From Lepidurus packardi (lineage: Eukaryota > Arthropoda > Branchiopoda > Notostraca > Triopsidae), in contig JAKZAN010000104.1 in NCBI GenBank assembly GCA_023053545.1, positions 1-64,000 on the forward strand: a DNA stretch of 64,000 bases, read 5' to 3'. The notes under the pieces were generated by a model. It had not been told where the DNA came from. It saw only the letters and a program-made list of their open reading frames with translations, and ran no database searches. Positions 1 to 32,112 of this stretch are shown here, piece by piece. Made by a program: the position numbers and the translations under genes. Each line of letters opens with the position of its first letter. Within the stretch, counting starts at the first letter, position 1.

Positions 1-214
1 CCCAACCCCAACCCCAACCCCAACCCCAACCCCAACCCCAACCCCAACCCCAACCCCAACCCCCAACCCCAACCCCAACCCCAACCCCAACCCCAACCCC
101 AACCCCAACCCCAACCCCAACCCCAACCCCAACCCCAACCCCAACCCCAACCCCAACCCCAACCCCAACCCCAACCCCAACCCCAACCCCAACCCCAACC
201 CCAACCCCAACCCC
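1..214. repeat. Macronuclear telomere, CCCCAA repeats
   Basis: About 35 tandem CCCCAA units run from the first base to about position 214, where the last unit degrades (CCCCTAACC). One unit near position 60 has five C. The C-rich strand reads 5' to 3' into the chromosome, as expected for the left end of a linear molecule, so the window begins at a true chromosome end. The C4A2 unit is that of Tetrahymena- and Paramecium-type ciliates, not the C4A4 unit of spirotrichs such as Oxytricha. Confidence 0.97.
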
Positions 215-490
215 TAACCATCACTGTCTCCTTTACTGGATTTTTTTATCTTCATTGGTGTAATTCCATTTCTGCGTATTTCTCTATTGCCTGTGGTCCT
301 ACTTGAAAGACCAGATATTTATGGAATCTATATAATTCTTGGGGGGGTTCTTTTGTAAGTATGTCGATAGTTAGTTTAGTATTAGAATCCAATGATGGGG
401 TCCTTATTTCCTCTGTTCTGCTTAAGCTTCATGACTCTACTTTACACTCCAGCCTACTCCTGGTCTTTCTAGCAAGATATCTACTTCACC
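215..490. other. Subtelomeric spacer
   Basis: About 275 bases of AT-rich sequence lie between the telomere and the first start codon. They contain a short G run near 341-347. I see no gene or further repeat. The 5' flank and promoter of the caspase-like gene must lie here, so that gene starts very close to the chromosome end. Confidence 0.6.
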
Positions 491-1279
491 ATGGAACAGC
501 AAGCCACACAGTATCTCCTTTTAATCACCAATGCAGGCCCCTCCGATCGGAGCACACCTAATCTCTCGAACCATAATCAACAACTAGTTAACACCATTAA
601 AGCATCAAGGAAAATACCGAACAACCAGATCCTAGGTCAACGTCTCCACGATGCATACTCAGTCGATGAGGCTCTCAAACACCAGTATAGATATGTCAAG
701 ACCCTTGACACAAGTAAATAGCCAATTCAGGAAAAAACACAGCTGATGAAGAGCATAGCCACAGAACTCAATAATTAGGAGTACAAAAACGTCATCATCT
801 ACTTCAGCGGGAACACTCACCCCCAAACAGGCAACTGGTACTTGTCCAACTCTACCAATCCAGGCGAGGGTATGCTAGCATACCAATAACTCATGAGACT
901 CTGGCGATCCCGCAAAAACTATACGCAACCACGCCATTTGCTAATGATTATCTAAGGTTCGAGTGGGTATGTCTGGGCACGCAAATGCTACAATGATGTT
1001 GCATTCACGGATGTGACTATAATGACCTGCGGCACTGTGGGCCAGAAATGTGCCGACACAGGTGTTGGGGGTTACTTCACCCATAACATTGCTTAAGCGT
1101 TGAAGATTAACAACGTTGCCAGTTTTGTCTTTGAGTAGAATATCGAGCAGAAGCAGAACATAACCCTTCTTGGTGTTCCAGTTCTAATGAATAAAGTCTA
1201 TGGTCTAAGTATTGGCTTCGAAAACTATGAGGATATCCGAAAATCTCATGACGACTTTAGCTACCTGGTTCGATAGTGA
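491..1279 (+). CDS. Caspase-like (C14-fold) protein, probably catalytically inactive
   Basis: A 262-residue protein, intronless, read through several in-frame TAA/TAG (Gln) to TGA. The order of elements fits a caspase/metacaspase-type domain. A first strand (YLLLITNAG) is followed by a strand ending in SGNTH at about residue 105, where the family has the catalytic SGHG. Next comes LLMIIQGSSG, where the family has a DxCxSG-type motif with the nucleophile, and then TCGTVGQ...GGYFTHN, matching the family block before its last helix. Both catalytic positions differ from the active consensus (no SGHG, no Cys in GSSG). I infer a non-peptidase member, a kind found in many protist genomes. Fold assignment is by motif order only. 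The start is the first in-frame ATG of the block. Confidence 0.55.
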
Positions 1280-1323
1280 TGCATTTATCTACCACTAGGC
1301 ACAGCGTAGAAGTTAGAGACAAA

Positions 1324-3157
1324 TCACTTGAAGCACTCCTTAACGAGTTGCTCCCCATTAACAACATTAGTCGTGCAGATCATGATTTCTCGATCGAGTT
1401 TCTGGCTCAGGAACCTCAGAGATTCTATTTCAGGGTAGGTGATACCGCCCAGTACGTACACTAATATTAGCTTCTTCTTCCCCCTTTTTGCATATTCTGA
1501 CTCTTTGAGTTCCGAGTAGTGAGTGGTGCCCTTGACTAAGTCAAACTTGTACTTGTAGTCTGTCCAGCTTCTGGGATACCTTGCGCCTTCCTCTACCATC
1601 CTCGCTCTAAAAATAGCAAATGAGATAAAATAAATAAGCTAAGGATATTTTTTACATCAGGGAGGCGTAGATGATGAAAATATAGTTGTAGTCTGTCGGG
1701 CTGGATAAATCCGCATCCGACTAGATCAGTCTGAACTCATTTTTTAGTTCCGACCAGTTGTTCTTAGAGACGTACTGCTGTATCAATCCTGCTTGTATCA
1801 TGCTACGGAACGCGAAGGAGTATTACAGACCGTAGTTACGGCATATGATTTCCTAGATGCTTTTGAGCTGCTTTTCCTTCAGTCCACCGTGGACTGCAGA
1901 GGCTAGACTGACCCATTTGAGTATGCTTTAGACTGGGTAAAACACTGTAAGTTCTTCAAGAGCCTAGAGGGACACGCTTCCAGTATTTATCATGGAGTTT
2001 TCCTGCGATACCCTCGTGTAGAAGCTAGTATTATGGATCTTCTGCGATACGTCCATGCCGATGTAGAGGTGGTTCTGGCAGAATACGTATTGCCTGAGGT
2101 TGCTCTTGACTTGTTCTTCGAGGGCAGTGATTTCGTTAAGACTTAATTCGCTCTTCTTCTTTTCCTTGGCCTCCTGTATTTATCCCTTGAGTCTCTTGCA
2201 GATGACTTCTGCGTCTTTGATGAAGAAGTTGATGTACTTATTGCGGAATTCCGAGTAGTACTTGTCCAGTGGGTTGCAAATCAGATAGGGTGCTTTTCCA
2301 TCCTTGGCCCCTCCGGATTCATTGACCAGTTCGCTTGGTACTGTGATCTGATTGAGTTTGATGGGATAGAAATTGTCGATCAGGCCTTCATAGGTGAAAG
2401 GCGTCAGCATCGGAGTCACCAGATCACACTCTCTGTCGAACAAGAATAGACTAATCTCGTACTAGCTTTCCTTCTTTTAGTACTTCTCCTCGTCCAACTC
2501 ATTAAGTTTCTCCCGCATGAGCTGGACAACAGTGTGGGCATTATCACCCTTTGCGAAAGTATATTTGAACATTCCGAGAGCACTCTGCAACTTCAGAATG
2601 GACTAGACAACCAGTTTGACTGCCATTTGGTCCTTCTCCACGTTCATTTTGTAGAAACAATTGTCGAACTCAAGACTAAGTAGATCCTTCTCCAGTGGAA
2701 TCAAGTCGAAATTCAGACTTTCAACTTTGATGCTGGAGAGGACACCCGCAGCCTCAAGGATATCTGCAGCCAAGAAGGTCTTCTTGGGGGACAAGAGAAG
2801 GAAGTACTATTTTTTGATGTTTCTGGATTTATTATCTAGGATCATGCGTGAGACTTTGCGGATGCTTTCATTATGTGGTCTGAGTAGGAAGACAACTACT
2901 GAGTTGGTTGAGACGTCCTGGACTGATTCTGCATCTTTATCATCGAACTAGAAGAGATAGGTTTCCCGGATGCTATTTTTATTTTTGAATGGCTCGAGGT
3001 CGTGGGCATAGATGAAGTTCAGAATGTCCAGGAGATTCTGGTCGATGTAGAGTGTTTTGTCTTAGATCGGGAACTAGAAGAACATGCGCTGGAGTTTAAC
3101 CTTGACGAACTCAAGTAGTTCGAGAGTGTCGAAGGCGGGTGGCTTCTGTGGATTCAT
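1324..3157 (-). CDS. VPS33: VPS33 family Sec1/Munc18 protein (HOPS/CORVET subunit)
   Basis: A 594-residue Sec1/Munc18-family protein, close to the length of VPS33 in other eukaryotes. Diagnostic blocks are LFDRECDLVTPMLTPFTYEG at about residues 235-255, the family signature for VPS33, and LVYVLGGITYPEIESLRFLS near the C terminus. VPS33 is the SNARE-binding subunit of the HOPS and CORVET tethers, which drive fusion at endosomes, lysosomes and phagosomes. One 49-nt intron (1607-1655, GT-AG) restores the frame near the 3' end: exon 1 is 3157-1656 and exon 2 is 1606-1324. Several in-frame TAA/TAG are read as Gln, and the stop is TGA. The gene is tail-to-tail with the caspase-like gene, with only about 45 bases between stops. 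Confidence 0.9.
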
Positions 3158-3581
3158 AATGGTTAAAACGAGATATCCAAAATACTATGGACAATGGTCG
3201 TCAGCAATAGGCTAAACCGAAATCATTATTGCTTTTTCAGATAAATGTATATCCCCACAGAGGGATGGGGTTGATGCTGCGATTTAGATAGTCGAAACAA
3301 CCTCTGATGATGAGAAATACGGAATACTATCCTAAACCAACTCTGGTTTTTTGTTTTTTTCGCAACTCAGTAGTCTAGTATCACGTATTCTTAGAATAGA
3401 AAAAACAAGACATAGGAGGAGGGGGACATAAAATATGTATAGGCATATGGGAGGGTAGTGCGAAGACATAAATTAATCAAATTTGTTACAGGTTACAATG
3501 AGAGAGATCTAAGGATGACAGAAAAAATGGCTAGCAAACTCAACAATCGTTCAGGAAAGCATGCACGCTCCCCTGAAAATC
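3158..3581. other. Intergenic spacer upstream of VPS33
   Basis: About 420 bases between the VPS33 start and the stop of the next minus-strand gene. AT-rich, with short T and G runs near 3350 and 3420. It should hold the VPS33 promoter. I see no further gene in it. Confidence 0.5.
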
Positions 3582-3977
3582 TCAGACCATCTTGGAGATT
3601 CGGTGTTTTCTTTCCTTGCGGCGAGGGGCTACTTACTAAACCCCGAACTACTGGTATATCTCGCCTTATTCTTGGATTAGATCATCAACATAAAGTATGT
3701 TTTGGCTGTTCTGGGTCGTGATGTTTTAGCCCTTGCTGGGAGACAGTCGGTCTGTTGCATGCTCATCGACTACCATCAGATCGTGATGAGAGTCATCTCG
3801 GCTGCTTTCGCCGAACATGATTCTGGTGCTTTTGATTTTCTTACCCCTCTTGCTGGATGGGGGTTGGACGAGAACGACAGTGGAGTTGAGACTATTAGGC
3901 TGGGAATCTGGGGGATGTTATTGGGAGAGGTTATGGAGTTTGAGGTTAAAAGTGGGTGTAGATTCGGAAGAACCCAT
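3582..3977 (-). CDS. Small hypothetical protein, polar and low-complexity
   Basis: A 131-codon reading frame from ATG to TGA with several internal TAA/TAG (Gln). The product is rich in Ser, Asn, Gln and basic residues and has a basic C-terminal tail (PRRKERKHRISKMV). It has no signal peptide or membrane segment and no recognised domain. It was kept because the residue composition looks protein-like, it shares the strand of its neighbours, and the opposite-strand frames here do not end in TGA sensibly. Under code 6, chance frames of this length are not rare, so it may be spurious. Confidence 0.4.
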
Positions 3978-9161: not shown

Positions 9162-9471
9162 TGGGTGTCTGCTTCTGTTGTACTTGCGTATTTGTGATTT
9201 TGAGTGTGATCAGTAATTATTATTATTTTGCTGGACCAAGCCTATCAATCTATTTGAGTGATCGTGCTATTCGCTGATCCATCAGAGAACCTTCTACGTC
9301 AAGAAGAAGTCCCCCTCTCAAAATCATAAGTTTTTATTTTAGCTACATATATCTGTATGAGTTGTATACCACCTGGCAGCGAGGTGGTCCTGGCGATGAT
9401 CTTACGCATATATATCTATCGATAATAGTTGAATCTGAGTTAAGATAAAGCACACAATCATTCAATGTCAA
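9162..9471. other. Intergenic spacer
   Basis: About 310 AT-rich bases between the PP4R3 start and the stop of the giant cysteine-rich gene. Probably the PP4R3 promoter together with the 3' end of the giant gene. I see no gene. Confidence 0.5.
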
Positions 9472-12400
9472 TCAAGGGTTGTAAGTTATACGCACCATGA
9501 GGCATTGCTCGAGTCCCAATGTTAAAGAGGTCCCTCGGATTCGGATGCCCCTGCTTTTGACCCTTGGTAGTCCGATCACATTCATCTCTGAGTCCAGTGA
9601 CACCATGGATCCGTAGAAGGGATTCGTCCACACATCATTTATTAGCAGATCCATTTCCACTTAACTGGGCAGGTTATAGCAACCTTCAGCGCACTTCTTG
9701 ATGTAGACATCGGTCAGTGTAACATCAGATGCAGACTTAAAGGTGAGCGACTCTTCGGTATTGTTCACAACTCCTTCGGCCCTGTAGTATCCATTCTCTG
9801 ATCGGTCCTGGATTGAAGGTCTTTTCGAAATGGTATCTTTGATATCGCAAATACTATTGAATGATCTCGATCTCTAGTCGATACTTTCAGTCACGATGCA
9901 CCTTTTAAGAACACTGATATATTTTGTGCCTGCTGCACAGCTCTCACAGACCTGACCCTCACGATTGAATTTAGGTTTCTGTGCAGGGCATTCAATACAG
10001 CGGGACGATGAATGGTCGTAAATCGGTGTTTCTTCAGGGCACTTGATGCATGTAGTTTTCACAGTGTATGTGTCAGTAGGACAAACATCCACACAAGTGT
10101 CTTCGAACATGAAAGAACCAGAAGTACAGTTTTATAAGCACTTTCCTTGGATGAGGTAGGCGCCATCGAAGCAACTCGTGCACACATCGAAGCTTTCACA
10201 CGTCAGACACCTAGGATTGCAGGTACTGCACTTTCCATGATGCATATATTGTCCAGGAAGACATTCGACGACGCACGTGTTATCGTTTTGGAGGAAAGTT
10301 CCATTTCGGCATTTTCTGCACTGGTTATTCTTGGGCCCGAAACATTACTCGCAGTTTTGGTGGCAGTCATCGCAAACAGAGTCGCAGCTATACTGACCCG
10401 AAAGACAGCTCTTCTGGCATGAAGTGCCGATCAGTTTGAATCCTGGGGAACAGGAAGTACACTTCTCTGGAGACTTCGAACACGTTAAACACGATCTATC
10501 ACAAGCTTTGCAAAGTTGATCATGGAAGAAAGTCCCAGAAGCGCAACTTGTACATTCGAGATTTGTAGGGCCTTGACAGGTTTCACACGATTAGTGACAT
10601 TTTTGGCAGATCGTCCCTTGAGGATAGGTTCCCTTCGCACACTACAAGATGCACTTCCCTTTGATCAGATTGTAAGGAGGTTGACACTTCGTACAGATAT
10701 TGTTCGCACACATCTGACAATTTTATTCGCACTTGGTACATTCTCCTTGGCTGATTTGATAGCCCACTGGACACTCCTGCAGACAGATTCCTGCGTGTAG
10801 CAGATATTTTTCATTGCAGGCTGTACATTTTTCGGGACTTTGGCAGGCAGCACACGTGTGTGGACACTTAACGCAATGATTGTGGATATTCCGGAAAGAT
10901 CCTCGAGGACAAACATTGGAACACTGGTTGTTCTGATCGAGAACGAACTAAGGACTACATTTTTGGCAGATGTTGCGGTGTTGACACTCGACGCAACCTT
11001 CAGAGCAACGTTGACAGGTGTTCTCCTTTCTAAAAGTGCCAGATAGGCATTGTTTCAGACATCTTCCTGAGTAAGGGTCTAACACAAACCCATTAGAGCA
11101 GGCCAAGCAAAGCTTATCATTGACACAGCGTTTACATCCACTTGAGCACTGCATACAGGTTTCATTGTTCCAATATCGTTCCTTATTGCAGAGTTCACAG
11201 GTACCGAACTCAGTCATTTCATAATTCTGACTACAATTCATACATTTCATGGGGCTCTCGCATGATATACAGTTTTTGCTGCATTTGGAACATATTTTCT
11301 GTTCGAGATCTTCAAATAGGCCAAGCCCACATTTGGACATGCATCGTCGATTGTCGAATAGGAAAAATCCAGGTTTGCAGGCAGAACATCTGCCGTTTGA
11401 GTCACAGGATGAGCATTCTTGGTCACACCCCACACATATGTTAGTTTCTGAGCGATAGAAGCCCATGGGGCACAGCTACACACATATTCCCGAAGACAGC
11501 GAATATCCTGGTTTACATTTATGGCAGATTTTATCATTAGAACAATCTATGCAGGATGAAGGACAGACTTGGCACGAGTTCTCAGCCAAATAGGTGCCAG
11601 TAAGGCAGGAAGTTCTGCACTCTTGCGCAACGGTAAGGACAAACCCAGATGCACAAGTAGTACAGAGCTGATTATCCGAGCATGTGAGGCAGTTCGAAGG
11701 GCATCTCACGCACTTACCTTCTTTGATGTAGGAGTCAAGGGGACATTCAGCAACACATGTGAACTGGTTATTCAAAGCATATCCCTTGATGCATGAAATT
11801 GAGTTAATGGCAGAGTCGCAAGCTGCAGAATTGGCTGGGCAGTCTACACAGTAGAGATTGAAGGAATATTGTCCAAGAGGGCACTGCTTGACGCATCTAT
11901 TATTGCGGTCTAAACTCCATCCAGGTTTACAGCTGGTGCAATAAGCAGGGTCATTGAAACATGTTCCACAGTTCTCGCTGCATTGGATGATGGAGTCGTC
12001 TATAACAGGCTAGCATTGTTTGTTTACCAAAGTAAAGGGAGGCAAACATTATTCACATGTTTGGGCATTCAGACACTTGGCACATCTGGGATCACAGATC
12101 TGACATTCCTGATTGACGGCATAGAATGCAGTGGGACAATTTTAGACGCAAATATTGCGATAAAGACTGAAGCCTTCCGTACAAGTAGTGCACTCATGTG
12201 CTGATTTTATGCATGATTTACAGTTAATAGAACACTTTTCGCAAACTCCGGAGTGCTAGTTGGGGTAGTACCCAGGCTTACAGGAAACTTCGCAGGATTG
12301 CTCGCTGAGGTAGAAACCAGTGTTGCAAGAAATACAGGTAGTTGGAGAGTTACGACAGTTGAGGCACTTTGGACTGCACTTAAGGCAAGTTGAATTGGCT

Positions 12401-15400
12401 GACTCAAGATAATTCCCGATTGAGCAAGAAGTGGTGCAGCGAGAGTTCTCCAGATATCGACCAGTAATGCAGGAACTGCAAAGATGTTCCGAAGTACAAC
12501 TACTGCATTTTTAGCTGCATCGAAGGCAGAATCCTTCATACGGATAAGATCCTATCGAACATGAGCTTTTGCATGTTGAGTCTTGATCCAAAACATAAGG
12601 AGTGATGCAGCTTACTGCAAGATTATGACTGTGGCAGGCACGAGCATTGTTTCCACATTTGATGCAAGCTCCACTGAGTTAGAAGAAACCTAGTGAGCAT
12701 TTTTCGACACAGGTACCATTTTGGTTTTTGAACCCAGATCGACATTAGAGGCAGGAGCTGAAGTGGGAGCATCTCTGACAGCCAGATCTACATCTCTCGC
12801 AGTTTCCGTTTCTGGGATAATAGCCATCGAGGCAAGTACGAGAGCAGATACCCTGGCTTCGTACGAAGGGGTCTTCGCAGAAGATGCATTGGTTTTGATC
12901 CCCACACAAAATACAGAATTACCCGCATAATTCTTTATTTCTGAGGTACTCGACGATCCACTTGGAAGAATCTAAAAGACACTCCGACCCAAAAGGAATG
13001 TATCCGATTTCGCATTTGCTGCAAGTCTGATTCTGCGTATTCCATTCTTGACAAACCACGGTTCTAAACTCTTCAATTATACCAACTAAGTCGGTACTCT
13101 CCACACATTTTCCATTGACATTTTGGAAACCTTAAGCACATTGAGAACAGCTCAGAAGATTTGTACAAGTCAGACAACTCTTTTGGCACTGACTGCATTC
13201 ACCTTCGAAACCGAAGCTACCAGAAGGGCAGGTTGTGATACAGCTAAAATTATATAGAAATTGGTTTCCGATGCAACGGAGGCAGCGGTTGCTCGACTGG
13301 CAGATAAGGCAGGAAGGATTACAACGTTCACAAGTCTGACCAGCAGGATCGAAGTAGTAAGATATCGGGCAAGATTCAGAACAGGTATTACCAAATTTAA
13401 TGAAGCCATCTCTACATTTCGTGCATCGCTGAGCATCGCACTATTGGCAACCTAGTTTACAAGGCTTACACTATCTTGTTTCAGTGTCTCGGTAAGTTCC
13501 ATTTTAACAATACTCTAGACATTGTTTCGTCGCTAGGGATAGATAAGAGCCAGTGTTGCAAACAATACATGTTTTGTTAGATTGGCAAGTCATACAGTTC
13601 TTCTGACAACTCTGGCAGGACGAACCGATTCTGAATGTACCGGGAGAACAGCTTTGAACACATCGCCCTTGCTGGAGCACGAATTGACTCGTGCAAGCAT
13701 GACAGCTTGAGGAAGAGTTGCAGCTAAGACAGTTGTCAGAGCATTTGACGCAGCTGGATGATTGATTAAAGTAACCTTTGGGGCATGTTGTGACGCATCG
13801 ATTTTTGTAAAGGAATGACATCGGACCGCATTGCAGGCAGTAGGTTTGAGATGAGCAGGAAACACAGTTATTGGCACAGCTGACGCATCGCCCTTGGAGA
13901 TCGTAGGTTGATAGAGGACATTTATCGATGCATGTGTTCTAGTGAAGAGTAAAGCCAGAAATACAGACCCTACAGCTCGAGAGGGAATCACAGTCTCGAC
14001 AGCCCATAACACATTGTTCGCAAGTTTGGTTGTTAGAGCGGTAGTGAGAGGAAGGGCAATCCTGTTTGCACATCTGATTGTACAGATAGAATCCCTGGAT
14101 ACACTTCGAGCAAGCCTGGGCCGAGGGACATTGTGAGCATCCAGGAGAGCATTTTCTGCATATCGATCCTGTATCTACATACTCATCAAGCTGGCAAGAA
14201 GTCACGCAAGAGGCATTCATAGCCAGAATCATTTTTGGCCTGCATTTAAGACAGAAACTCACATTCTGGCATTCCTCACAGTGAGCTTCGCAGTTCAAGC
14301 ATAATCCTGTTTATCCGACGTATTTTCCGACTCCGCAGCTACTAACGCAACGTCCATTCAAATTGAAGAAAGGGGTTCGACAATTCACGCATGTGTCTTT
14401 GGTACAGTCAGCACAACTCTCTTAGCATCGATGGCAACTCGAACCATCCTGGTAAGTTCCCTTAGGACACGAAGTGACACAACTCTGTTAATTCAAAAGC
14501 ATACTGGAATTGCAGGTTAGGCAGTTGCTTCGATTGCTACAGGTTCTGCAATTACGGTCACATTTTTCGCATTAGAATCCGTTTCTGTACTATCCATCTT
14601 TGCAGGTAGATATACAGAAGCGATCGGAGAGCAAGAAAGGGGATTCACATTTAATACAGTTGGCTACATCCAGACAGGTCTGACAGTTAGATGAACAGGA
14701 TACACAATTTTGGCCATTGCTGGATATGTACTGGTTCTGTTCACATCTGGTTACGATGGTCCCATTAGTCGAAATAAGGTATCCTTTCTTTGGAACCAAA
14801 CAAATATTAGCCGACTGGCAATCCGCGCATCCGTCGATGCACATCACACACCTGGAACCATTGGAAAAGTATCCAGTTGAGCAAGCTGAAACGCAGTTTG
14901 TTTAAAGCAGCAAATAAGGGGATTTGCAGGCAAGACAGCTCTGGTTATCGGTACACTCCGCGCAGGTAAGAGGACAGCTTTTATACTCACCATTAATCTT
15001 GTTCAAGTAGTACCCAGGAATGGTGTCATTCTTACATGAAGATGTCTCAGTCCAAAGATAGAGTCCTTCCTTGCAGCTTTTACAGGAAGAAGAAGAGCCA
15101 AAACATGTTTTGCAGTTCATAGAACATTCCTCACAGACACTGTTTTTTAAGAAGTAGCCTTGTTCACAGCCAGTTTCTAGGGCAATACAGCTATTTTTGC
15201 TCAGGATAAAGCCCTGATCACAGGTTTTGCATGATTTTCTAGAAGTGCAAGTGATGCATGGTCTTAGGCATTTCTGGCATGCATTTGTTTATAAGTATTC
15301 ATCAACGCTGCAAGCAGAAACACAAGAGCCTGTGGAGCTAAGGAAGAGTGGGGCTGTACAAGATGTGCAAACTGAAAACTGTGAGCAAGTCAAACACTGG

Positions 15401-18400
15401 GGGCTGCATCTGAAACAAGTCGCAGCATCGGGATACATTGCCACAGGGCATTCACGCACACAACTATTGTTAAGTAGATAAGACCCCGTGCGACAGGAGG
15501 TGCAATGATTTTCAGACGCCTTGCAGGTTAGGCAGGAAGAGCTGCAGGGTAGGCATATCCTGAGCTCACTTGGGTAATGACTAGGCAGGCACTATGTCAG
15601 ACAATCTTTACCAGATAAGAATCTGCCATTGTTACAGCTGAGGCAAGTATCGCCTGGAGCAAGGCATGTATTGCAGATGGGAGAACACTTCTTGCAGCTA
15701 CCTTCAGAGTTAAATTCCGAAACACCACATTTATCGCTGCAGCTGCCTTCAACAGTAAGGACGAGAGCCGGGTTACATATATTACAAATGTTGGAAGAGG
15801 TGCAAGATAGGCATCCTACTGAACAGGTTTCACATACCTTCTGAGCAGGATAGAATCCTTGGGAGCAACTAGTAGCACAGATACCTTTTCCTTTATCCAA
15901 AAGATAGCCGTCTCGACAAGTAAGGCAGTTATTTTCAGAAGGACCATAACATTGCTCACACTTATGGTAGCAGTTTTAGCATTTACCAAACTTATCATCT
16001 TTAAAGAACCCTGGCAGACAATGAGTCAGACACTTGCCCTACTGCAGGTAATGGAGCGAGGGACATCTGGTACATTATTGTTCGGAACCTCCGAAACATT
16101 ACTTGCAAGTAGCATGACAGGCAACACATTATTGGTTGGCATTATTGCCGTATTTGCCTAGTGGACAGTTAGCCTCACAACGTCCGTTCTCCAGGAAATA
16201 AGGTTTTACGCAGCTAAGGCATCGATCAGAGCTCATGCATCTGGTGCAAACATTGGGGCATGAGATACAGGCTCCATTATTAGAATACTCTCCATCAAGA
16301 CAGAATCCAACGCAATCCTTCTGCCTCAGAACTAGTCCTTGATTGCAGGTCAGACATCCTTGTATATCGCAGGTACCACACTGATCCTTGCACCTCTCGC
16401 ATCTTCCTGAAGGGCCATTGAAATATCCTCCGGGGCAGGCCTTATGACATCTATGGTCCAAATAGAACCAGCCTGGCTGGCAAGAGAGGCACTCGACTTC
16501 AGTTACTCCTTTACACGAAGCGCAACTAGAGAAACATTGTTTACAAGCTCCAAGGTGAGCAGCCCAGCCAGTCGGACACATTTCTATGCAGCTATTTTGG
16601 TGGAGGACCTTTCCGTTGGAGCAAGAAACGCATCTATCAAATTGGAGGCATTTCTGGCAGTTTTTCATACAACCTTGACAACTTTGGGTGGTTGTATCAA
16701 AGTAGAATTCATCAGGACACTATCCCAGGCAAGTTCCGTTAAGGAGCTTGAGGCCGGTCTGACATCCCAAGCACTATCTATTAGAAGTTCCAGAGCAACT
16801 ACTGCAGGTCGGATCACACCCTAAGCATCTGTCCCCTCTTACTACTTAATTCTTGTTGCAGGACTTTACACAAGTATTGCTACCTCTGAGAAGATAACCA
16901 CTGGCACAGGTTACACATTGGTTTGGCCCTCTTCCGGTACAAGATTGGCAGGTCTAATGGCACTTCATGCAGAATCCATTTTCGGGGTATTCCTGAATGG
17001 GACAGCTTTGGATACATTGTCCTTCACGTTGCACGAATCCCGATTTGCATGATGTACATCGTTCATAAGACTCGCAGGTGAGGCAAGAGTTAGGGCAGTT
17101 TTCACAAGTTCTTGATTTAGAATAAAAACCAAGCGGGCAGCTTTAGACACAGGATCTGTCGTACAGGAGCCTCTGAGTGTGGCATGTTTTACACTGATTA
17201 GGTTGCGGACCAAAGCATGTGGCACAGCTTAAGTGGCAGGAAACACACTAGTTATTCACCACAATCTCATTATCTGTACAGTTAGAGGTGCATGTCATTA
17301 ATTGCCGTGATAAGTATGGGAAGTTGCTATTTTGACTGCAACTAAGGCAGGCATTTTCATTAGAGCAGGTGCGGCAGACACTCGAACACCTTTTGCAGGT
17401 TGAATCTAATTTGTATTCTCCATCAGGACACACTTAGAAGCACTTTTTGGAGACTTCGGAAAGCATAAGGGCTGCTCGACAGCTCACACAGTTGTCATCA
17501 GTTAGCGCGCACTGGTTGCACTACTTCGAACACTTGCGACAGTAGAAACCCGAAACGAACTCATCGGAATTACAACCTGGTACTACCAAGAATGTTATGG
17601 AACTAATGTAGTAGCCTTTCTTCGGGACTCTGCAACTATAGAAATTGTCACATTCCAAACAAGAGTCTGGGCACTGCACACACTTTTTAGTTTGTACTTC
17701 CATAAAGGTCTCAACAGGACATTGCATAATACAATCACCTTCCCATAAGAATCCATTAGCACACTATAAGCAGACATTTGGATTCTGGGTGCATGTTTTG
17801 CACTTAGGATTGCATCTCAAACATCTTCCCGAAACTGCTGCTTATCCAGCCGCACAGGAATTCACACAACTCATGTTGGCGGCAAGAAGTGGGACGTTAG
17901 TTGCTGAGTTACAGGAGGTACACTGTGTGGCTTATCCTTGGCACGTCATACAGTTGGAACTGCAGGCTAGGCATAACCCATTGGCGACATAGAATCCGAG
18001 TGGACAGCTAGATACACACATAAATGCGGGTTTGTAGTAGTGTGGATAAGGAGAAGCAGGGTTGCAGCTTGTACATAAGGCTTGAGATCCTTCACACGTC
18101 CTGCATCGACTATCACATCTTTAACATCTTCCAGAACTGGAACCAAAGAACCCTTCACCACACTCGGTGACACATCTTCCTGTGGTGGATAAGAAGGTGG
18201 AGCTAGAATTGGTTAGTATGGGGCAGCTCGTACAGAATTCAGGTATTCCAGAACAAGTCCTGCAGTTAGGGCTGCACTTCAAGCAGTGGGTACCGTTGTT
18301 AAACTCAGAGGTAGTACAACTAGATACACACCTGTTCGTGGAAAGGCTGAGATAGGGACGGGGTGAGTTCTAACCACAGCTAAGACAATGAAGCTCACTG

Positions 18401-21400
18401 GCGCAGGTGAGACATTACTCATTGCATTGAAGACATTCTTTGTTCGTTAGTTCGAGGTAGGTTCCGACTGGACACAGTTCTACACAGGTCTTCTTGTTTC
18501 TCCATAAGTATTTTAGGGCAGACTCTACTTTGCAGGATGCGCAGAAAGATGGTTTATCGGCGCAAGTTAGACACTGGCTATCGCACACCATGATTACTAT
18601 TACTTTCTGGATGCAGTGAGTCCCATTCGATTCGGTATTCGGTTAACACTTATCGATGCACTGACCCTTCTCATTTACAAGGAGATTATTTCTGCATAGA
18701 GTGCCAAAATTAGCATTCAAGCAGGAGACAAACATCGAAGGACAGGAAACACAATGTGTCATGTTGGAGTACATTCCGGTTGGGCAAGCACTTATGCAAA
18801 GATTGGTAGCTGTGTTCATCATAAACTGGGGTTAGCAGCTAAAGCATCGTAGATGGTTAGCACAGCTTTCACAGCCCACGGGGCACTTCAGACAGGCTGT
18901 CAAGTTGGCATGGGTTCCTCGGGGACACTCGAGCACACACCTCTGGTCTGGAGTTATCATGTACCTTGAATCACAATGTTCGCATCTCAGATTGTCGAAG
19001 CAATTAACGCAACCATCTCCGCAAAAATACATCTTCAAATCGGTTATGGAGAAGTCTCGCACGCAGGTATTCTGCTGGAGATTGAACCCTTTTCTGCAGC
19101 TGATGCAGATATTCGGGGAGTTGATACAGCCCAGACATTGCGAGGAACAGTCCATGCAAACATAACCCCGAGCGAATTGGTTGATATGACATTTCTCCAG
19201 GCATTTGTTGTTAGACAAGTATGGGGTAACCGAGAACTGGGCACATGAGGAACATGTGGTTTCGTTTCTGAAGCATTGTTCGCAGTTATAGTTACAGATC
19301 CTGAACATTCCTGAAATCTCGAAGTAGCCTACGGGAGGTCTGTTGACGCATCTAAATTGGGATACTGTTTGTAGAAGTTTGAAAGGAGCGACACAAGCAG
19401 TGCAATTATTGGGAGTGCCTGAACATCTTTGGCAGCTTCTCCAGCATTTGACGATCCTGCCATTGAATAGTATTTCATCTTCCGCCAATGCCATCTAGCT
19501 CTGGCACATGTTGCTAGAAGCAGACAGCTGGAAACCCTGAGGACACGAAGTACAGAAGCTTGGATTTCCTTCGCAGGTCATACAGTTTTTGTCACAAATC
19601 TGGCATTTTCCATTAACGCTGAACTGTCCACCTGGACAGACAAACAAACATCTGGAGTCCATGCTCAAGACTTGTCCCGAAAAGCACTTGGTGCATACCG
19701 AATAAGAACTACAACGAAGACAGTTGGAACTGCACTGCATGTAGATCCTCAGTGTTATGTCATAGTAGATGTTTTCGGGGATGGTGTAGAAGCAAGAACC
19801 TTTGAAAAGAATACTGTCTTAAGGGCAACTGGTGCAGTTAAAACTGTGGATCGAACAGGTAAGACATAGGCTATCGCAGGACTGGCATGAGCCGAGACTG
19901 TTAGCGAATTCTTTGGGTGGGCAAGAACTAACGCACTGGAAGTTATTTGTCAAAAACGTATTGTCAATGCAGCTTGAACAGTTGGTGCCGATGAAAGAGC
20001 ACGTACGGCAAGGCTCCACACAAACCAACAGTTTGGTAATGCCTTATATCGTATATGCTGCACAAGTGTTAGACAGTGTGAGAGTCTGGCCTGTGTGGCA
20101 GGTTAAACAAAAAGTGGGGTTATTCTTGCATGTCTTACAGTTCTGGGAACATGCTGAACAGAACCAGTGTTCGGGATCCTGTGTGTTAGCGTAGAATCCG
20201 GTCTCGCAGTTCAGGGTGCAAGTCATGTTCGGAGCCAAGATTCTGTTAGGGATATTGCTTCTACAGATTTTGCATGTACTTTCAGTTTCTCCACAAACTC
20301 TGCAGTCAGGGTGGCATCCGCACTTGCACTCACGGGTGGCGGAATATACCACGAGATCGCTCGAACACCTGACTCGACACCTACGAGTAAAGTAGTCATG
20401 GTAAAGGGGTGCTGGACATTCGTCAACGCACACATCCATGTACTCGAACTGGTTAGTGCGACTGCAGTTATTCATGTCTCCGAATGCCCATAGTCTCTGA
20501 CCAGCTTCATTGTAAAGTCCCACGAAAGGGGCGTAGGGCTCTAGATAGAGATTAGTATACTTGAGATTAGGGATTTCTCGGCAGACAGGTAGACGAGTGC
20601 TCTTCCAGAGAGTCTCTCCGTTGGAGCCTATAATTGAGAGAGTACCATTATGTCTAGGGGAAAACTCCACCCCTCGTGCTCCAGGGAAGTTGCCTATTAC
20701 CCTCTTGACTACCTCATCGCGATATGTTGCCGATGTTCCGACCTGGTCGATCATGTTAAGTGTGGAAGTGTATCGATTATGTTCCAAGAAAATACTGAAG
20801 TGGTGCTGAAAGATGTTGACTAGATCGTACTTTCCGCTAAAGTATATGCCCGCAAGCGATAGTTTGGAGGTTTCAGGGACAAAGCCATAGATGAGTTGTT
20901 GGCCTAATACTTGCATCTGTTGGGTCTCGGGGTAATACAAACCGAGTGAATCGTCGCCAGTCATAAATGAAAGGCGCGGCTCCTCTGTGCATATCAGCAA
21001 AGTGTACGCATTCTTGGATGCTGTCGGGAGAAGATTGCTGACTGTTAATATGTCGTAGACGTTGTTTTTATTAGATGACGCATAGAGTCCCGATGCGTTA
21101 ATGAAGATTGATGCGAGGGTCTCCGATGGATCACAGAGAACATGGCGAGTCTTGAAGGGATTGAGGGCGAACAGAGACGACTTGAGGATGTAGTAGTAGT
21201 CGCCAGTGACGTTGCTCAGAGCCATCGTGGAATAAGAGAAATCGGGATGGAAGGCGATGCGATTATTGCCGAAGGAACTGACGAGATAATCTCCGGGATA
21301 AATTGTGTTCTGGTCGCAGTCAAGGGAGGAGAGGCGATAGAAGACAGACGCGTGAGCTGGGAGCACTAGGAGCAGTGCCACGAGCAACAAGAGGGTAGTA

Positions 21401-21426
21401 GGGATGCTTTTGGATGTATGATGCAT
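9472..21426 (-). CDS. Giant secreted cysteine-rich (furin-like) repeat protein
   Basis: A single intronless frame of 3,985 codons (ATG 21426, TGA 9472). I scanned it codon by codon and found no in-frame TGA; dozens of TAA/TAG are read as Gln. Residues 1-27 form a signal peptide (LLLLVALLLVLPAHA). Residues ~28-320 are a non-repetitive ectodomain with N-glycosylation sites. Residues ~320-3,860 are tandem cysteine-rich units of the CxxC...C..C...CxxCxxG type, as in furin-like/growth-factor-receptor repeats (e.g. CSSCDSNGRCSACKPGFFLF). The last ~100 residues are non-repetitive. I see no C-terminal membrane segment, so it is predicted to be secreted or matrix/pellicle-associated. Ciliates carry large families of such proteins with mostly unknown roles. 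Function is not assigned. Confidence 0.9.
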
Positions 21427-23060: not shown

Positions 23061-23165
23061 AAACATGATTTGCTGTCCATCAAAAGGGTTTCTTAAGACT
23101 CGCCTATCGACCTATAATTCTCATTATAATAATAAAAAAAAAAAAAAAATATTTTTTACCTGAAC

Positions 23166-23693
23166 ATGTTCGGAAAAACTCTCCTCGTCGTTGCTCTTCT
23201 TCTCAGCGTCTGCCTCTCGAGAACCGATAAAGAGATCCTGCAGCTGACGTTGAATGGTTTGACAGGTGCGAACTTCATGCCCAATACCACCACCATCATC
23301 CCTTGCTACTCTGATACAAGTGCCCATCTGGCAGTATCCGCCATCGGCTCCTATCTTTTATATGCCAGACAAAGCAGCCAGGCAGATATCCAGTGCACGA
23401 GTTATGATGCAGCCAGGGCCTTCTTCGACAACCTTTCCGAGTCAGAACGCACTTGCCTTCTTAACAGCTACGAACTAAAAGTTCTTGCTAAGGATTACAA
23501 CATGGACTTGAATAACCAATACAATATCAGGAACACCTATCAGACATACTGCGTTAGCCACCCCTTGATTGTGCACAAGTGGCTCGTGGATCTGAGTGAT
23601 ACTTGGAACAACGCCAACTTCGGTCTGGCTGGGTTCAAGCTTGCCGTGGACTTACGCGACATATACCATTTCCCCACAGAGACTGTGGAGTGA
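23166..23693 (+). CDS. Small secreted protein, paralogue A
   Basis: A 175-residue protein, intronless, stop TGA. Signal peptide MFGKTLLVVALLLSVCLS. The mature part is helical with four to five Cys (PCYSD, IQCTSYD, ERTCLLNS, TYCVSH) that may pair, and a tail HKWLVDLSDTWNNANFGLAG. A poly-A run (about 23131-23146) sits just before the ATG. It pairs with the next gene, which shares the signal peptide, REILQL/KEILQL opening, Cys spacing and the HKW-D-DAW motif. I do not recognise the family; a secreted or vacuolar role is inferred only from the signal peptide. Confidence 0.8.
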   Translation: MFGKTLLVVALLLSVCLSRTDKEILQLTLNGLTGANFMPNTTTIIPCYSDTSAHLAVSAIGSYLLYARQSSQADIQCTSYDAARAFFDNLSESERTCLLNSYELKVLAKDYNMDLNNQYNIRNTYQTYCVSHPLIVHKWLVDLSDTWNNANFGLAGFKLAVDLRDIYHFPTETVE

Positions 23694-24039: not shown

Positions 24040-24612
24040 ATGCTTGGAAAAACTATCTTCTTCGCTGTCCTCCTCACTGTATGCCTGTCTCAAACAGACA
24101 GAGAAATACTCCAACTAGCCTTTAACGGCATCACAGACCAGAACAACATGCCAGCATCCACCAGATTCGTCTCCTGCTTCTCTGACGATAGCATCCCTAC
24201 TATTATTGATTTCCTCAGTCTTAGGATTAACAGGACTGCTAATGGCGGATTGAGTGAGATTTTGGCTCTACCCAACTTCACAAGAGACTTCATTGCTTAA
24301 CTTCCGAAACAGTAACGCGTTTGTGTGCTCAGCAGTCCTTAAATACAAACTCTTGTCAACATTTACAACTTGGACTTCAACGATTTCGACGGAACCACGC
24401 AGATTTATTTTAACTATATCGGCCTACACTACTTGACATTCCACAAATGGATGGTAGATGTTCGCGATGCCTGGAACGGAAAGTACCATTACTCGGCAGG
24501 GTACAAGTTCGCCACGTTTACGCACTACATGTTTAGCCCTCATATGAAAAGGCTATGGAAGGCGTAGAGGATCGTCCTGAGTGTGATGAGCAAGTTGTTT
24601 GGAAATTTATGA
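24040..24612 (+). CDS. Small secreted protein, paralogue B
   Basis: A 190-residue tandem paralogue of the gene at 23166. It starts MLGKTIFFAVLLTVCLSQTD (signal peptide) and contains three in-frame TAA (LPKQQRV..., SSPQIQT) and one TAG that must be Gln. The homology to paralogue A runs on both sides of them (RDFIAQLPKQQRVCVL against RAFFDNLSESERTCLL; FHKWMVDVRDAWNGKYHYSAG against VHKWLVDLSDTWNNANFGLAG). It is therefore useful evidence for the code. Paralogue A lacks such codons at the same sites. The stop is TGA at 24610. Function unknown. Confidence 0.8.
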
Positions 24613-25870: not shown

Positions 25871-26047
25871 TTCTTTTCTGATTGAATTAATTCCTCTTTT
25901 TCACATAAACACACGTAGTTTGACATATATATAATCAATAATATCATCATCGATCTGATAAAATAGAAGTAACAATAAAAACTACATCATATTTTATTTA
26001 TATATAAAAATATATATAACTGTGCCTATCTTATTCAGGCTTCTTCC

Positions 26048-28324
26048 ATGAACACTTCTCTCGATACTCTTAAGGAAAACATTGATCCTTTTATTGCTAA
26101 CCCCACCTGGACTGTACACAATCGTACTAACTTCACTACCTTCAAGACTCTCTTCCTCTCTGTCCTTATTGTCGTGTTCTCGGTCTACTACAAGTGGGGC
26201 TATGTACAACACCTCTGGCTCGATATCGAGTCACTCAACCAGCGTAAAACCACCAAGTCCTCAGTCGACTACTTCATCCAGAATCTAGTCATAGGTTTCT
26301 AGTTTGTACGCAGACCCACCTACCCTGCCAGTGGCACCTTCGACCCTGCTTTACATTTTTTCGCCTATTATGCTGATTTCGAGTTCGTTCCTATCAATCG
26401 GAACATCACTCGCCTTCCTTCTTGCCCCCACGGGTTCCCTCAAGCAGCCGAAGTCTGTATAGTGATCGAGAATAGCGAGTATGGAGTTAGTTCGCCAATA
26501 CCCAGATTCGTCGTCGACCGTGCCTACTAAAACACTATCAGAATGCGGACTTATTGGAAACGTGCCAACCACACCACCCTTCTAGAGCAAATATAGCCCT
26601 AAATCATGAGTTGGTAAATAAACGATTTCCTCGCTTGCAGCCATGTGTTAAAGGTTAGAATTGTTGAAATTACTCTCTATAACAGCTTGTCAACCAACCA
26701 GCCCCCCGAAATCCGGAAGGATCTCCAGCCAACAGGCGGCAACAACTACTACTTGGTCTGTGCTCCTGGACGTGCCTTCAAACAGGATCTGGCGATCTAT
26801 GGCACTCTTAAGGTGGAGTCAGTCACTTACACGCGGTATGATTTCAGTGTCATCCTGGGTGCCGTCGTTTCACAAATCCAACTGTGCGTGACTGTGTTAG
26901 CATTATTGATGGTGAGCTTTACAGTGCTCAACATGCAAATCGAGACCGTTCGAAGAGTCTACTACCATGCGAGACTGGGCGAGATAAAAATAAGTATTTG
27001 GTTTATGATGAAGTACTACATTTACAAGCTGTTGCTATTGCTGAACCTTAAGGAGTACGTATAGGGACGAGACACCTTACAAAGTCAAAAACTGATGAAG
27101 GTGTTCGTGGACTGCGCCCAATAGATACTCTCAGTGGAGAATATAGTGGCGAGAATCGAGAAACTTAAAATAATGAATAAAGACGTCCCTTCTAAACATA
27201 AAAATAGGAGATTAGGTCCTCGTAAATTCTTTATTCCCCAAAGAAGAAACATCTCCTTTAGCGAGAGCCACAAAATCAGCAAGTAACCCAAAAGTCGCAA
27301 GGTCTTTTAGCTGATCAAGCATTTAGATTTCAGTCCTACTCCTATTCAGTTCTACTGTCGAAGATCCTATAACACTTCCTACACCAGCATCTTTATTGCT
27401 CTCCTTAGCATAAGTGCTATGATAGCATGCGCCATCCTCCTCAAGCTCTTCAACACGGAACCATATGTGTCCTTCTAGAATCATATCAAAAGCACTAATA
27501 CCTACACTAGTAAAGGAATTAATCTGAAGTTGTTTAGCTATAAGAGTGGGGGGTTTTCGAGTGAGACCCGCATACCCAATACGATTGGTGATAGGTACTA
27601 CCATGTGACATTCGAAGAAATAGATGGCCATGGCAATGTTATCGGTACTCCTTCCGTATTGCAGGAATAGGATTGCCATCCTGACTACTACCTCTACAAA
27701 GGTTGGCTCACGAACATCAGCAACTACTGTATTAACATGACACTCGAGCAATAGCCTCCCAGAATGATGCGAATCAGAATCAACAATCTCGTTCCTGGTG
27801 GCATTCCGTACGCAGCTTGGTTCATCGACCAGCCTTTGTACGAAATCAATCAGAGTGATCCTCTTGGAAGATATGTCCAGACTCCGCGTCCTCTTGACAT
27901 CTTTCCTGGCACTCGGATGACGTTCGTGACTTATGCAAGCCAAACCTTTACGGGGTAGTCTAGGGCTGGGTTCTACTGGATGGTCTAGCCCCATTTATAC
28001 CCTAACCAGATCTAGATCATTTTTGGTCTCGACAGCATCTTCATGCTGCAGAGTAGCAAAGAGATCGGTATTTTCGACTTCATAACCAACGTATTCAACA
28101 TCAATATGCTCATGATCATGATCGCAGCAGGACTGGCAGGGCCTCTGAATGCCAGATTCGCAGTCTAGAAGCTACGGTAGTAACATAATGATAACGAGTC
28201 GAAAAAGAGTCTGGACGTGACTGTGCTGCTGGGGAGACTGTAGTATCTGGAGGTAGACAATCCTCTGAGGGACAGCAGTCCTTTTTTCAAGAAGGACCTG
28301 ACTGATAGTAGTTTGATTGAGTGA
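26048..28324 (+). CDS. Multi-pass membrane protein, intact tandem copy
   Basis: A 758-residue intronless protein with many in-frame TAA/TAG (Gln), stop TGA. Four hydrophobic segments: TLFLSVLIVVFSVYYKWGY (~33-52), VSQIQLCVTVLALLMVSFTV (~275-296), TSIFIALLSISAMIACAILL (~445-465) and INMLMIMIAAGLAGPLNA (~683-702). Each half reads as membrane segment, large ectodomain, membrane segment, suggesting an internal duplication. The ectodomains share TRIPNTI..YYHVTFEEIDG-like strands. I do not recognise a named family. A broken second copy lies at 29834-32112, and every segment aligns in order, which confirms this model. Confidence 0.8.
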
Positions 28325-29833
28325 TTGCAGTACTAAAAATGGATATTGATATTTTTTTACTGAAAACATGTGTCATAAAAATAAAATAGCCAATATATAT
28401 AAAGTACGGGGAGTTTCTAAAAGGGACCGTTGGGCATCCCCTCGGTTTTCCTGCTATTGAGTATATTTTATTTTCGATATGGGAGTAGTGGGATAGCAGC
28501 TAAAACAAGGTAACATTGCTTATGATATTCAGTTTTAGATTATCCATTGTGCTTACTATTTGCTACTGATTACTGTTTTTGCTCTTACTGATCATATTGG
28601 AGCTCTACCAAGCAGACACAAATCGAATAGTGGGTTTTAAAAGGTTCACAGGCAGGGAGGCAAGCAAGGACAACCATACACATACTTTTTGGAACATTAC
28701 TGGGTAAAGTATTCACGATCTAATGCTGTCGGAACACTCATCCAAACCACCACACCACAATCATATGCTTCTCAGAGTTTATTCAGCCATATGAAATGCC
28801 TATTGTTTATATCTTCGATACGCTAATGTGCTATTGGCGTCCCTTGTCAGACCAAACCCGGGTACAACTTTGTTGTTTTTGGCGGGCCTTGGAGTTTGTT
28901 GATCAAATTGAGCTAAACTATATGATGCTGAAGCCCAGGTTGTGGGTGTGCTTTGCCGACCGTAACACTATCTGCATTATTTTGAATATGCAAGGCAAGC
29001 ATTCGTCAACATATCCAAATATACACACTTCTTCTATTATCGTTTATCTCTCCCTTAATCGGAAGAGAGTTGACAACATACATATATATATATTGGATAT
29101 ATATATATATAGTGTTCCTTAGTTTTCTGAAAAATACAGTCCTCACCTTTATTTTTGATAGGTGGTGTTTTTCTAAAATGACAATTCCCAATTCTAAGTG
29201 TTGATTGTACTGCACCCAGCAGTCGAATGCAACACTCGAAAAAATGCATACCCCTGTCTAACAATTCCGATGATATCGTTAGTTGGCATCGATATGAACA
29301 TTGGGTCCAGCCCAAGCTAAAATCATCGCGCAATCCAAGTTTGCGTGATCTCCTGAGGACCATCCAGACTGCCTACTCTTCCCCCCTGCCATTTCTAAAT
29401 ATTTTGCTAAATAATTGTTGATTTGGTAAAATGGTTTGGGTGTGTTTCCTGATGCCATAAGATTTGTTTGATATGTTTCTGTCGCATCCAGTTTTTGAAT
29501 TAAACTTAAGAATATATAAAAGAGTGTTTGGGTTATGGACGTTACATATTCTTTTCTTTCCTTTTTAAACAAACGTACATTTATGTTCTACATAGAAAAA
29601 CACCACGGCATGTTGCCCTTCTATTTCTGTTCTTAAATCCTCAGTTTCTAAAACAGACCAATGTTCTGTCCATACAACAAACATAACCCCCCTCCTAAAA
29701 CCTATACAAGAATAATGAGATATAATTTGTTTTTTCCATAAAAATAAAAACATAATACATTTCCACACTCATTTTAAAAATATATAAAGTTTTCTGAATC
29801 ACTCTCTCTCTCTTTTTACACAATTCTTCTATT
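28325..29833. other. Spacer between the two membrane-protein copies
   Basis: About 1.5 kb of AT-rich DNA with a TATATATA tract near 29083-29111. A minus-strand frame at 29006-29572 stays open for 188 codons under code 6, but it runs through the TA tract and has no recognisable features, so I do not call it a gene. No repeat flanking the duplicated genes was evident by eye. Confidence 0.4.
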
Positions 29834-32112
29834 ATGAGCCACTGCCTTGATACCGTCAAATAGGACATTGATATCTTCAGGACCAACCCTCCTTGGACCA
29901 TCACCCGTCGCAACAAGTTCACTACCTTCAAGACCCTCTTCCTCACTCTCCTTATCGTCGTATTCTCGGTCTACTACAAGTGGGGCTACATCCAACACCT
30001 CTGGATCGACGATGCTCTTCTCAACCAACGCAAGTCGACCAAGTCTGCTGTCGACTACTTCATCCAGAATATCGTCATTGGTTTTTAGTTTGTCCGTCTA
30101 CCGACCTATCCCGCTAATGGTGCTTTCGACCCCGCTACACATTGGTTTACTTACTATGCTGATTTTGAATACAAAAGTATCAATAGAAACCATCACCATG
30201 GCTCTCTTCATGTCCACACGGACTACCCTAAGGAAGCAGAAGTCTGCATCATCATCGAAGACAGTGAGTATGGTTTGGCCTCACCCATTCCCCGGTTTGT
30301 CATTGACGGTGCGTATGAGGACCTCTATAAGAATGAAGACTTACTGGAAGAATCCTAACTTTACCACCCTTCTAAGACAAATCGAACCCTAATTCATGAG
30401 TTGGTAGATCAAAGATGCTCTCCCTTTTAGCCATGTATTGAATGTCAAAATCGTTTAAGTTACCCTTTATAACAGTCCTATCTATTAACCAGCCACCTGA
30501 GGTCCGAAAAGCTTTACAGCCTTTAGGGGGGCAACAACTTCTAACGTAGTCAACGTCCCTAAACGTACCTTCAAACAAGACTTGGGAATCTACGGGACTC
30601 TGAAGGTTGAGTCAGTCACTTTCACACGATATGATTTCAGTGTCATTTTGGGAGCAGTGGTCTCCCAAATCCAGCTCTGTGTGACTATTCTTGCTCTTTT
30701 CGTAATCTGCTTCACGGCCCACGAGATGAACCTGAAGACAATCCGAAGAGGTCTACTATCATCCAAACTTAAACAACATATAAATCAGTACCTGGTTCAT
30801 GCTCAAATACTACATTTATAAGCTTCTGGTACGGCTATGCCTAAAGAAGTGCTTGAAGAACTTCTCTCTGTTCGTAGATCAACAGATAATGTGCATGGTC
30901 ATAGCCTGCAATGAAGAGGTTCTGTCGGTGGAAAACATCCTTTCGAGAATCTAGAAAATTAAGCAACGCAAAAAGACCATATCTGTAATGCATATAGAGT
31001 AAGTCGGTCTTAAAAATTCAATGTCACCCAGAAGGTTTGTATCCTTTACTGAGGCTCATAAGATTAGCAAGTAGCCGAGGAGTCACAAGGCGTTGGAATT
31101 GATAAAATACTTAGATTTCAACCCTGCCCGGATCGAGTTCCACTGTCAGAAATCTTATAGCTCCTCGTATACCAGCATCTTCATCACTCTTCTCGGAGCC
31201 GTAGCCATGGTCGCAGGCATTTATTTCCTGCAACTCTACAAAATGGACCCTTACATCGAATACCAAAACCATATTAGAGCCATCAATGGCTACAAAAGCC
31301 AGGGTCTTTATCTCAAGCTCTTCAGTTTCCGCACCGGTGTCTATAACGACCAAACACGCATACCTAACTCCATTGCCAAAAACTATTACAAGCTCACTTT
31401 CGAAGAAATCGATGGTAATGGTAATGTGATTGGTAGTCCATCAGTCCTGGAAGAGGGAGAACTGCCACATGTCAGACTACAGGTACAAAGGGTCGCTCAC
31501 AACCAGCACCAACTATTGTGTCAACATGACTATCGACCAGAATCCTGTGAGGATGATGCGAATCAGAATCAACAATAAGGTGCCTGGAGGTATTCCTTAT
31601 TCATCTTGGGCGATCGACCAGCCTTTGTTCGAAATCAACCAGAGTGATCCACAACGTCGGTATGTCCAGTCGTCCACGTCCTCTGGACATGTTTCCTAAT
31701 TCTCGAGGAAACTTTATAATCATTTCCAGCCAGACCATCAGTGGCTAGTCTTTGTCAGGTTTCTACTGGACTGCCGAAGCCCACCTGTTTCCTGAACAGA
31801 GGGAGATCGTCTTCGCAATGGAAAGCATCCTCTTGTTGCAGAAGAAAAAAGAAGTGAGTATATTCGACTTCATGACGAATGTCTTCAACATCAACATGAT
31901 TGTAGTTGTGGTAATCGCAGGAATCGCAGGTCCTATCAACGCCCAATATGCCCTTAAGAGATTGAAGGAGAAGTATGGCGGGAGACTGCCGAAGAAAGGA
32001 CCTGGACATGGTCGTGCTGCTGAACTGCCTCTAGCATCTGTAGGCACAGGAGTCTGACGAGAACGGGGTGTTCTACAAGAAAGCTCTGGCTGACAGTCTA
32101 CACCTGGAATGA
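29834..32112 (+). pseudogene. Frame-broken tandem copy of the membrane protein
   Basis: Collinear with the gene at 26048-28324 from start (MSHCLDTVKQDIDIF) to TGA at 32110. All four membrane segments are present: LFLTLLIVVFSVYYKWGY, VSQIQLCVTILALFVICFTA, SIFITLLGAVAMVAGIYFL and MIVVVVIAGIAGPINA. The frame changes at about 30322, 30470, 30525, 30750, 31450, 31680 and 32000, almost always by one extra base relative to the intact copy (e.g. GAGGTC for GAGTC near 30750). No GT-AG introns explain these. Between breaks the protein sequence is well kept, including in-frame TAG/TAA as Gln. I call it a pseudogene. Assembly indels or recoding are alternatives. Confidence 0.65.

Follow-up and report, generated by a model that had tools for sequence, protein, structure and literature searches.

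The first 64,000 nucleotides of contig JAKZAN010000104.1 in the Lepidurus packardi genome assembly GCA_023053545.1, referred to here as the window, contain a giant open reading frame (ORF) of 3,984 codons, which is regarded as a real gene of a ciliate. The predicted protein consists of a signal peptide, a cysteine-poor N-terminal region, 73 furin-like modules, and a C-terminal region. The reading favored here, with a probability of roughly 0.55, is that this protein would serve as a secreted structural fiber of a coat or matrix.

The giant open reading frame and its ciliate origin

The ORF (9472..21426) is located on the minus strand, which the initial annotation of this DNA had either not given or not given correctly, and runs from an ATG at 21426 to a TGA at 9472-9474. 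The claim of a single 12-kb frame free of TGA was confirmed with exactly these coordinates: the terminal stop is the only TGA in frame, whereas the remaining five frames of this DNA contain 67, 110, 58, 66, and 81. With an expectation of 76, the mean of these five frames, the Poisson probability of finding no internal TGA by chance is ~7e-34. Coding is continuous and, as far as the sequence can tell, intronless, as had also been proposed. Under the standard code, the 54 in-frame TAA and TAG codons split the ORF into 55 pieces, the first of 460 residues, which agrees with the many small frames expected by the initial annotation for a reading without code 6. The encoded protein contains 576 cysteines (14.5%) and 203 CxxC motifs, and the mature chain has a mass of ~435 kDa.

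The window starts at the end of a chromosome (contig C93, 103,585 bases) with 36 copies of the telomere repeat CCCCAA (1..219, no strand). The same repeat starts contigs C202, C171, C166, and C264, whereas C104 opens with N and C194 lacks the repeat at its start. Contig starts with CCCCAA are ciliate macronuclear chromosome ends. Four copies of TGGGGT at 32282-32306 form an internal repeat of telomere-like type, which may mark an alternative chromosome end or a junction. The assembly (108.6 Mb, 344 contigs) has 22 18S sites on C1, C16, C30, and C329; the three that were read are of two types and look animal by eye. Given the CCCCAA telomere and the animal-looking 18S, the ciliate was therefore probably a co-sequenced companion of the animal sample. 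The ciliate carrying the giant gene is probably a peritrich. The diplomonad Hexamita also reads TAA and TAG as sense codons. A diplomonad origin was set aside for three reasons: the telomere consists of CCCCAA, the neighboring gene appears by eye to contain introns, and the codons are assigned to glutamate rather than glutamine.

Reassignment of TAA and TAG

The reading with code 6 in the initial annotation stands insofar as the frame is open under code 6 and table 30 alike. The amino acid is a different matter, as table 6 is probably wrong and TAA and TAG very probably encode glutamate (table 30) rather than glutamine. The translation of UAR as glutamic acid has been reported for peritrichs (PMC11687900).

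In a module-position test with the giant protein alone, serine scored 5.2, glutamate 4.2, lysine 3.8, and glutamine -8.3. With six furin-like proteins (78 codons), glutamate was best for both codons with 10.9 versus -10.7 for glutamine, and the five paralogs alone (29 codons) gave 0.3 versus -3.4. This method was right for 14 of 20 control codons but misread GAA and GAG as glutamine, and is therefore weak on its own. Over 18 PDB alignment columns from four conserved proteins, the BLOSUM sum was 39.0 for glutamate, 20.6 for aspartate, and 18.5 for glutamine. In a codon comparison of paralogs, in which each pair was counted once and shadow frames served as control, TAA or TAG in the coding paralogs of the window stood opposite GAA or GAG 13 times and opposite CAA or CAG once, with both kinds of codon nearly equally common (64 and 60). 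The shadow frames gave one and three such cases, respectively, and the remaining pairs, mostly from furin-like proteins, four and five at 419 GAA/GAG and 885 CAA/CAG codons. The clearest evidence came from a cluster at ~25900-32050 (plus strand) of the window. This cluster consists of paralogous pieces that are 49-67% alike, lie in several frames, and resemble a tandem gene family with introns. Pfam scores were mixed: glutamate was better for a decarboxylase by 2.4 bits, for four M16 domains by 0 to 1.4, and for Sec1 by 1.0, and glutamine was better for Furin-like_2 by 0.6, for kinesin by 0.4, for Microtub_bd by 0.6, and for E1-E2 ATPase by 1.1. Taken together, the module, PDB-column, and paralog tests favor table 30. 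With glutamate at these positions, the calculated isoelectric point of the giant protein is ~6.5, compared to 7.8 with glutamine.

Furin-like modules and their cysteines

The 73 modules (10096..20322, minus strand; residues 369-3777) typically have the spacing C-x2-C-x3-C-x2-C-x5-C-x2-C-x10-C-x3-C-x10, and all eight cysteines are present in 51 of them; parse units 1, 75, and 76 are omitted from this count. The repeats end in an irregular cysteine-rich segment (9901..10095, minus strand; residues 3778-3842) with several C-x2-C pairs ~13 residues apart. The initial estimate of more than 3,500 residues of furin-like repeats is thus borderline, as the regular modules span 3,409 residues and the entire cysteine-rich stretch extends from ~350 to 3860. 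Two of the checks that the initial annotation had proposed, a profile search and an analysis of the repeat period, speak for the furin-like identity. In addition to the regular cysteine spacing, Pfam Furin-like_2 (PF15913) matches with 142.2 bits at a cut-off of 28 (141.6 under code 30), and no family other than furin-like and growth-factor-receptor ones was found in the whole protein at E<=0.01. Of 13 matching sequences in PDB, 12 belong to R-spondins and the remaining one to EGFR. The PC6B-type consensus Cx2Cx3Cx2Cx5-7Cx2Cx10-15Cx3C occurs 42 times, whereas 200 shuffles averaged 0.02.

Cysteines are mostly lost in partner pairs. The pairing used as reference is C2-C4, C3-C5, C6-C7, and C8 with C1 of the next module, which is taken to be the disulfide numbering of R-spondin Fu domains. 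Of the 31 positions lost in the parse, 24 also lack their canonical partner. Random placement yielded 1.6 such positions on average and never more than 10 in 20,000 trials, and the same losses in registers shifted by 1-7 positions gave 2-14. Position 8 and position 1 of the following module are lost together in seven events as parsed, or in nine if the ambiguous modules 3 and 8 are relabeled by hand. Positions 3 and 5 are jointly lost in modules 13, 56, and 62, and positions 6 and 7 in modules 20 and 40. The seven unpaired losses comprise four in modules 3/4 and 8/9, two in module 53, and one at junction 71/72, an irregular site that looks like a short deletion on manual inspection. Module 53 was parsed as losing positions 3 and 4, with 2 and 4 also possible by hand; since only this ambiguous module bears on C2-C4, that pair is not established on its own. 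Overall, the losses indicate that the cysteines are constrained in pairs, and thereby indirectly support a disulfide ladder as in furin-like and R-spondin repeats.

The modules share a mean identity of 0.31, with 0.50 for the best pair (49 modules compared), and the DNA of the gene contains no tandem array. At ~31% identity, the repeats are therefore ancient and not an assembly artifact, and they appear as old and selectively held. A recent tandem expansion is ruled out by the low identity together with the lack of a tandem array.

The Fu domain of Rspo2 consists of three β-hairpins with four disulfides arranged as a ladder, with 50-60 degrees of freedom between domains (PMC3905715). With such inter-domain freedom, the giant chain is probably long yet semi-flexible.

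Signal peptide and terminal regions

The signal peptide (21349..21426, minus strand; residues 1-26) has the hydrophobic core TLLLLVALLLVLP, a hydropathy peak of 2.36, and a predicted cut after AHA, the A-x-A cleavage site being judged by eye. As this is the sole hydropathy window above the threshold of 1.5 in the whole protein, both the signal peptide and the missing membrane anchor of the initial annotation are borne out, the latter within the frame.

The N-terminal region (20380..21348, minus strand; residues 27-349), which had been described as a unique ectodomain of ~300 residues, is poor in cysteine. Residues 24-333 have no match elsewhere in the assembly (one candidate scored) or in PDB at E<=10, and residues 1-333 have none in Pfam at E<=10. 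A weak likeness to the β-strands of bulb lectins was seen by eye, is backed by no search, and is not claimed. An AlphaFold2 model of the region, calculated without relatives, had a mean predicted local distance difference test score of 35 and was unusable.

The C-terminal region (9475..9900, minus strand; residues 3843-3984, ~140 residues) contains few cysteines and ends with MVRITYNP. It has no relative in Pfam, PDB, or the other furin-like proteins of the assembly, and no hydrophobic or glycosylphosphatidylinositol (GPI)-like tail as judged from hydropathy and by eye. Matches to hemoglobins (best E 0.31), NosD (E 0.029), and DUF5433 (E 0.051), the latter two below the cut-off, are ascribed to chance.

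Furin-like proteins in the assembly and in other organisms

A Furin-like_2 profile search of the assembly gave at least 21 matches on 8 contigs, and a four-module query of 187 residues at least 58 matches on 18 contigs, namely C93, the animal-like C6, and 16 others. The matches on C6 presumably belong to an animal proprotein convertase, which they resemble by eye, and were kept out of the comparison set. Seven comparison proteins were read to or near their end (C202, C104, C194, C171, C166, C264, and the last part of C299); for C299, the frame of its match was followed, with ~0.6 kb between the match and the part read being omitted. The stop-to-stop frames of the six whole proteins comprise 1894-3429 amino acids with TGA as sole stop. 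In six of the furin-like proteins of the assembly, 3-12 matches to the PC6B consensus were counted in each, compared to 42 in the giant protein. Large size and furin-like modules are thus common to these proteins and the giant protein. In contrast to the giant protein, however, all seven have several membrane-spanning stretches and long tails. The proteins on C202, C194, and C171 have a related membrane region in common. The giant protein is the only unanchored one of the eight read; ten of the 16 contigs (C253, C262, C259, C144, C219, C108, C152, C304, C176, and C84) lie outside this comparison and may include non-ciliate ones. Its ends match none of the compared proteins.

Two of the contigs read show further features. 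C166:32922-41405 encodes a different giant cysteine-rich repeat protein of 2827 amino acids, which by eye consists mostly of C-x3-CP repeats, has just 11 CxxC motifs, and carries membrane-spanning stretches close to its end. At C299:12001-16000 lies the end of a furin-like membrane protein, whose tail is very long, charged, and repeat-like.

The cysteine spacing of the giant protein is like that of the furin-like repeats of R-spondin Fu1-Fu2 and EGFR-type proteins (PF15913, PF00757, PF14843); PF14843 reaches 24.2 bits at a cut-off of 29.5. The pattern of cysteine loss fits the same disulfides per module as in R-spondin, which has two modules instead of 73. The thrombospondin repeat that follows the two Fu domains of R-spondin has no match in the giant protein at E<=0.01. 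No kinase or LRR domain was matched, and the subtilisin catalytic domain of the proprotein convertase PC5/6B has no counterpart either (no peptidase at E<=0.01). Tetrahymena MTA and MTB are likewise ciliate proteins with furin-like repeats and are thought to act at the cell surface (PMC3608545). They are predicted at 161 and 194 kD with exons encoding transmembrane segments, as opposed to ~435 kDa and no such segment in frame after the repeats. Giardia HCNCp, other high-cysteine membrane proteins, and VSPs share with the giant protein a cysteine content of ~14%, many CxxC motifs, and the PC6B-type consensus (PMC1762436). HCNCp has 1609 amino acids, 77 CxxC motifs, four PC6B repeats, and a C-terminal membrane span (PMC1762436), compared to 3984 amino acids, 203 CxxC motifs, 42 consensus matches, and no membrane span. 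The C-terminal membrane span and CRGKA tail of Giardia VSPs (PMC1762436) are missing from the giant protein, and the VSP profile PF03302, which has a cut-off of 31.4, reached a score of 19.4 under code 30. The module itself is thus known; what appears to differ is the module number, the lack of an anchor in frame, and the two ends that are orphans with respect to Pfam, PDB, and this assembly. A literature search of titles and abstracts yielded no description of such a protein; its absence from print is not claimed.

Proposed role and rival explanations

The signal peptide would direct the protein into the secretory pathway for export, and oxidation in the endoplasmic reticulum would produce a ladder with close to 300 disulfides. 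Stacking of the modules would result in a continuous, semi-flexible ladder of β-hairpins with a contour length in the order of 0.2 µm, estimated at ~3 nm per module. Outside the cell, such chains could assemble into a fiber, coat, or matrix, where both end regions would serve as contacts for attachment or assembly. In a peritrich, natural sites would be the stalk sheath or fibrillar matrix, the lorica, and the cyst wall, with the glycocalyx as a further candidate. The stalk of Vorticella has an extracellular sheath, a fibrillar matrix, and rod-like batonnets (PMC6189993). The roles in pellicle, lorica, cyst wall, or adhesive matrix suggested in the initial annotation are plausible. The stalk in particular is a tentative choice of site, and it is similarly doubtful that the ~435 kDa soluble chain of 73 modules would be the main building fiber of a peritrich stalk or lorica.

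Of the rival explanations, the one with most weight, although itself unlikely, is that the giant protein is a soluble member of a ciliate furin-repeat family for cell recognition and acts as ligand or co-receptor for membrane-bound members, on the same cell or on a different one, in mating or contact recognition. The matches to the four-module query on 16 contigs besides C93 and C6 are in line with such a family, as are the membrane-spanning stretches and long tails of the seven other furin-like proteins read and the Tetrahymena proteins MTA and MTB, which combine furin-like repeats with transmembrane exons and on which efficient non-self recognition depends (PMC3608545). Against this reading, the giant protein has no membrane domain in frame, and its ends match none of the proteins compared. 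Somewhat less likely still is a role as cargo of extrusomes (mucocyst type) or the cyst wall, which would be stored in granules and released on demand. Secretion, richness in disulfides, and the lack of an anchor would suit such a protein, and Giardia HCNCp, with 13.9% cysteine and 77 CxxC motifs, is a cyst protein (PMC1762436), but HCNCp ends in a membrane span, and the Pfam search at E<=0.01 found only furin-like and growth-factor-receptor families.

That the protein is membrane-bound after all, through a spliced exon or frameshift or by means of a lipid anchor or partner, is improbable. By hydropathy, the seven other members read are membrane-bound, and a frame of ~45 residues beyond the stop peaks at 1.67, above the value of 1.5 used for most others. 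On the other hand, just ~310 nucleotides separate the stop from the apparent start of the next gene, the membrane regions of five paralogs (C202/C194/C171, C166, and C264) have no match in the window and the next 10 kb at E<=1, and no GPI-like tail was seen by eye. An artifact in the form of a chance frame, a misassembled tandem array, or a pseudogene is very hard to reconcile with the probability of ~7e-34 for the lack of TGA, the absence of a tandem array in the DNA, the ~31% likeness of the modules, and the coordinated loss of cysteines.

Several points weigh against the structural fiber of a peritrich. The same anatomy would fit a soluble recognition ligand or extrusome cargo. The ~45-residue hydrophobic frame lies at ~9340-9470 of the window (minus strand), a few bases past the stop and in another phase, and it is possible that splicing or a frameshift into it supplies an anchor. 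Both end regions are without a recognized fold, the single structure model being unusable. The peritrich identity hangs on the code, and two patterns detected no ciliate 18S, the one with a ciliate-like ending giving the same sites only.

Neighboring genes

Upstream of the giant gene and divergent from it, two adjacent genes at ~23163-23693 and ~24040-24567 (plus strand) of the window encode similar small secreted proteins of ~176 amino acids, which are 34% alike and match no Pfam family over the cut-off. A secreted Peptidase_C39-like protein (PF13529, E 4e-8) is encoded at 56887-57486 (minus strand).

Implications

To our knowledge, little has been established about the genes that encode the stalk and lorica proteins of peritrichs. 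A giant, anchor-free disulfide chain is a concrete candidate for these structures that can be tested by proteomics. The case also illustrates that, in the assembly of another organism, the standard code can conceal a giant gene from a co-sequenced ciliate, and that the correct reassignment of stop codons, to glutamate instead of glutamine, alters the predicted chemistry of a protein. If the fiber reading is true, a module that is known from receptors and ligands would serve a structural purpose here, in a ladder that is exceptionally long for its kind.

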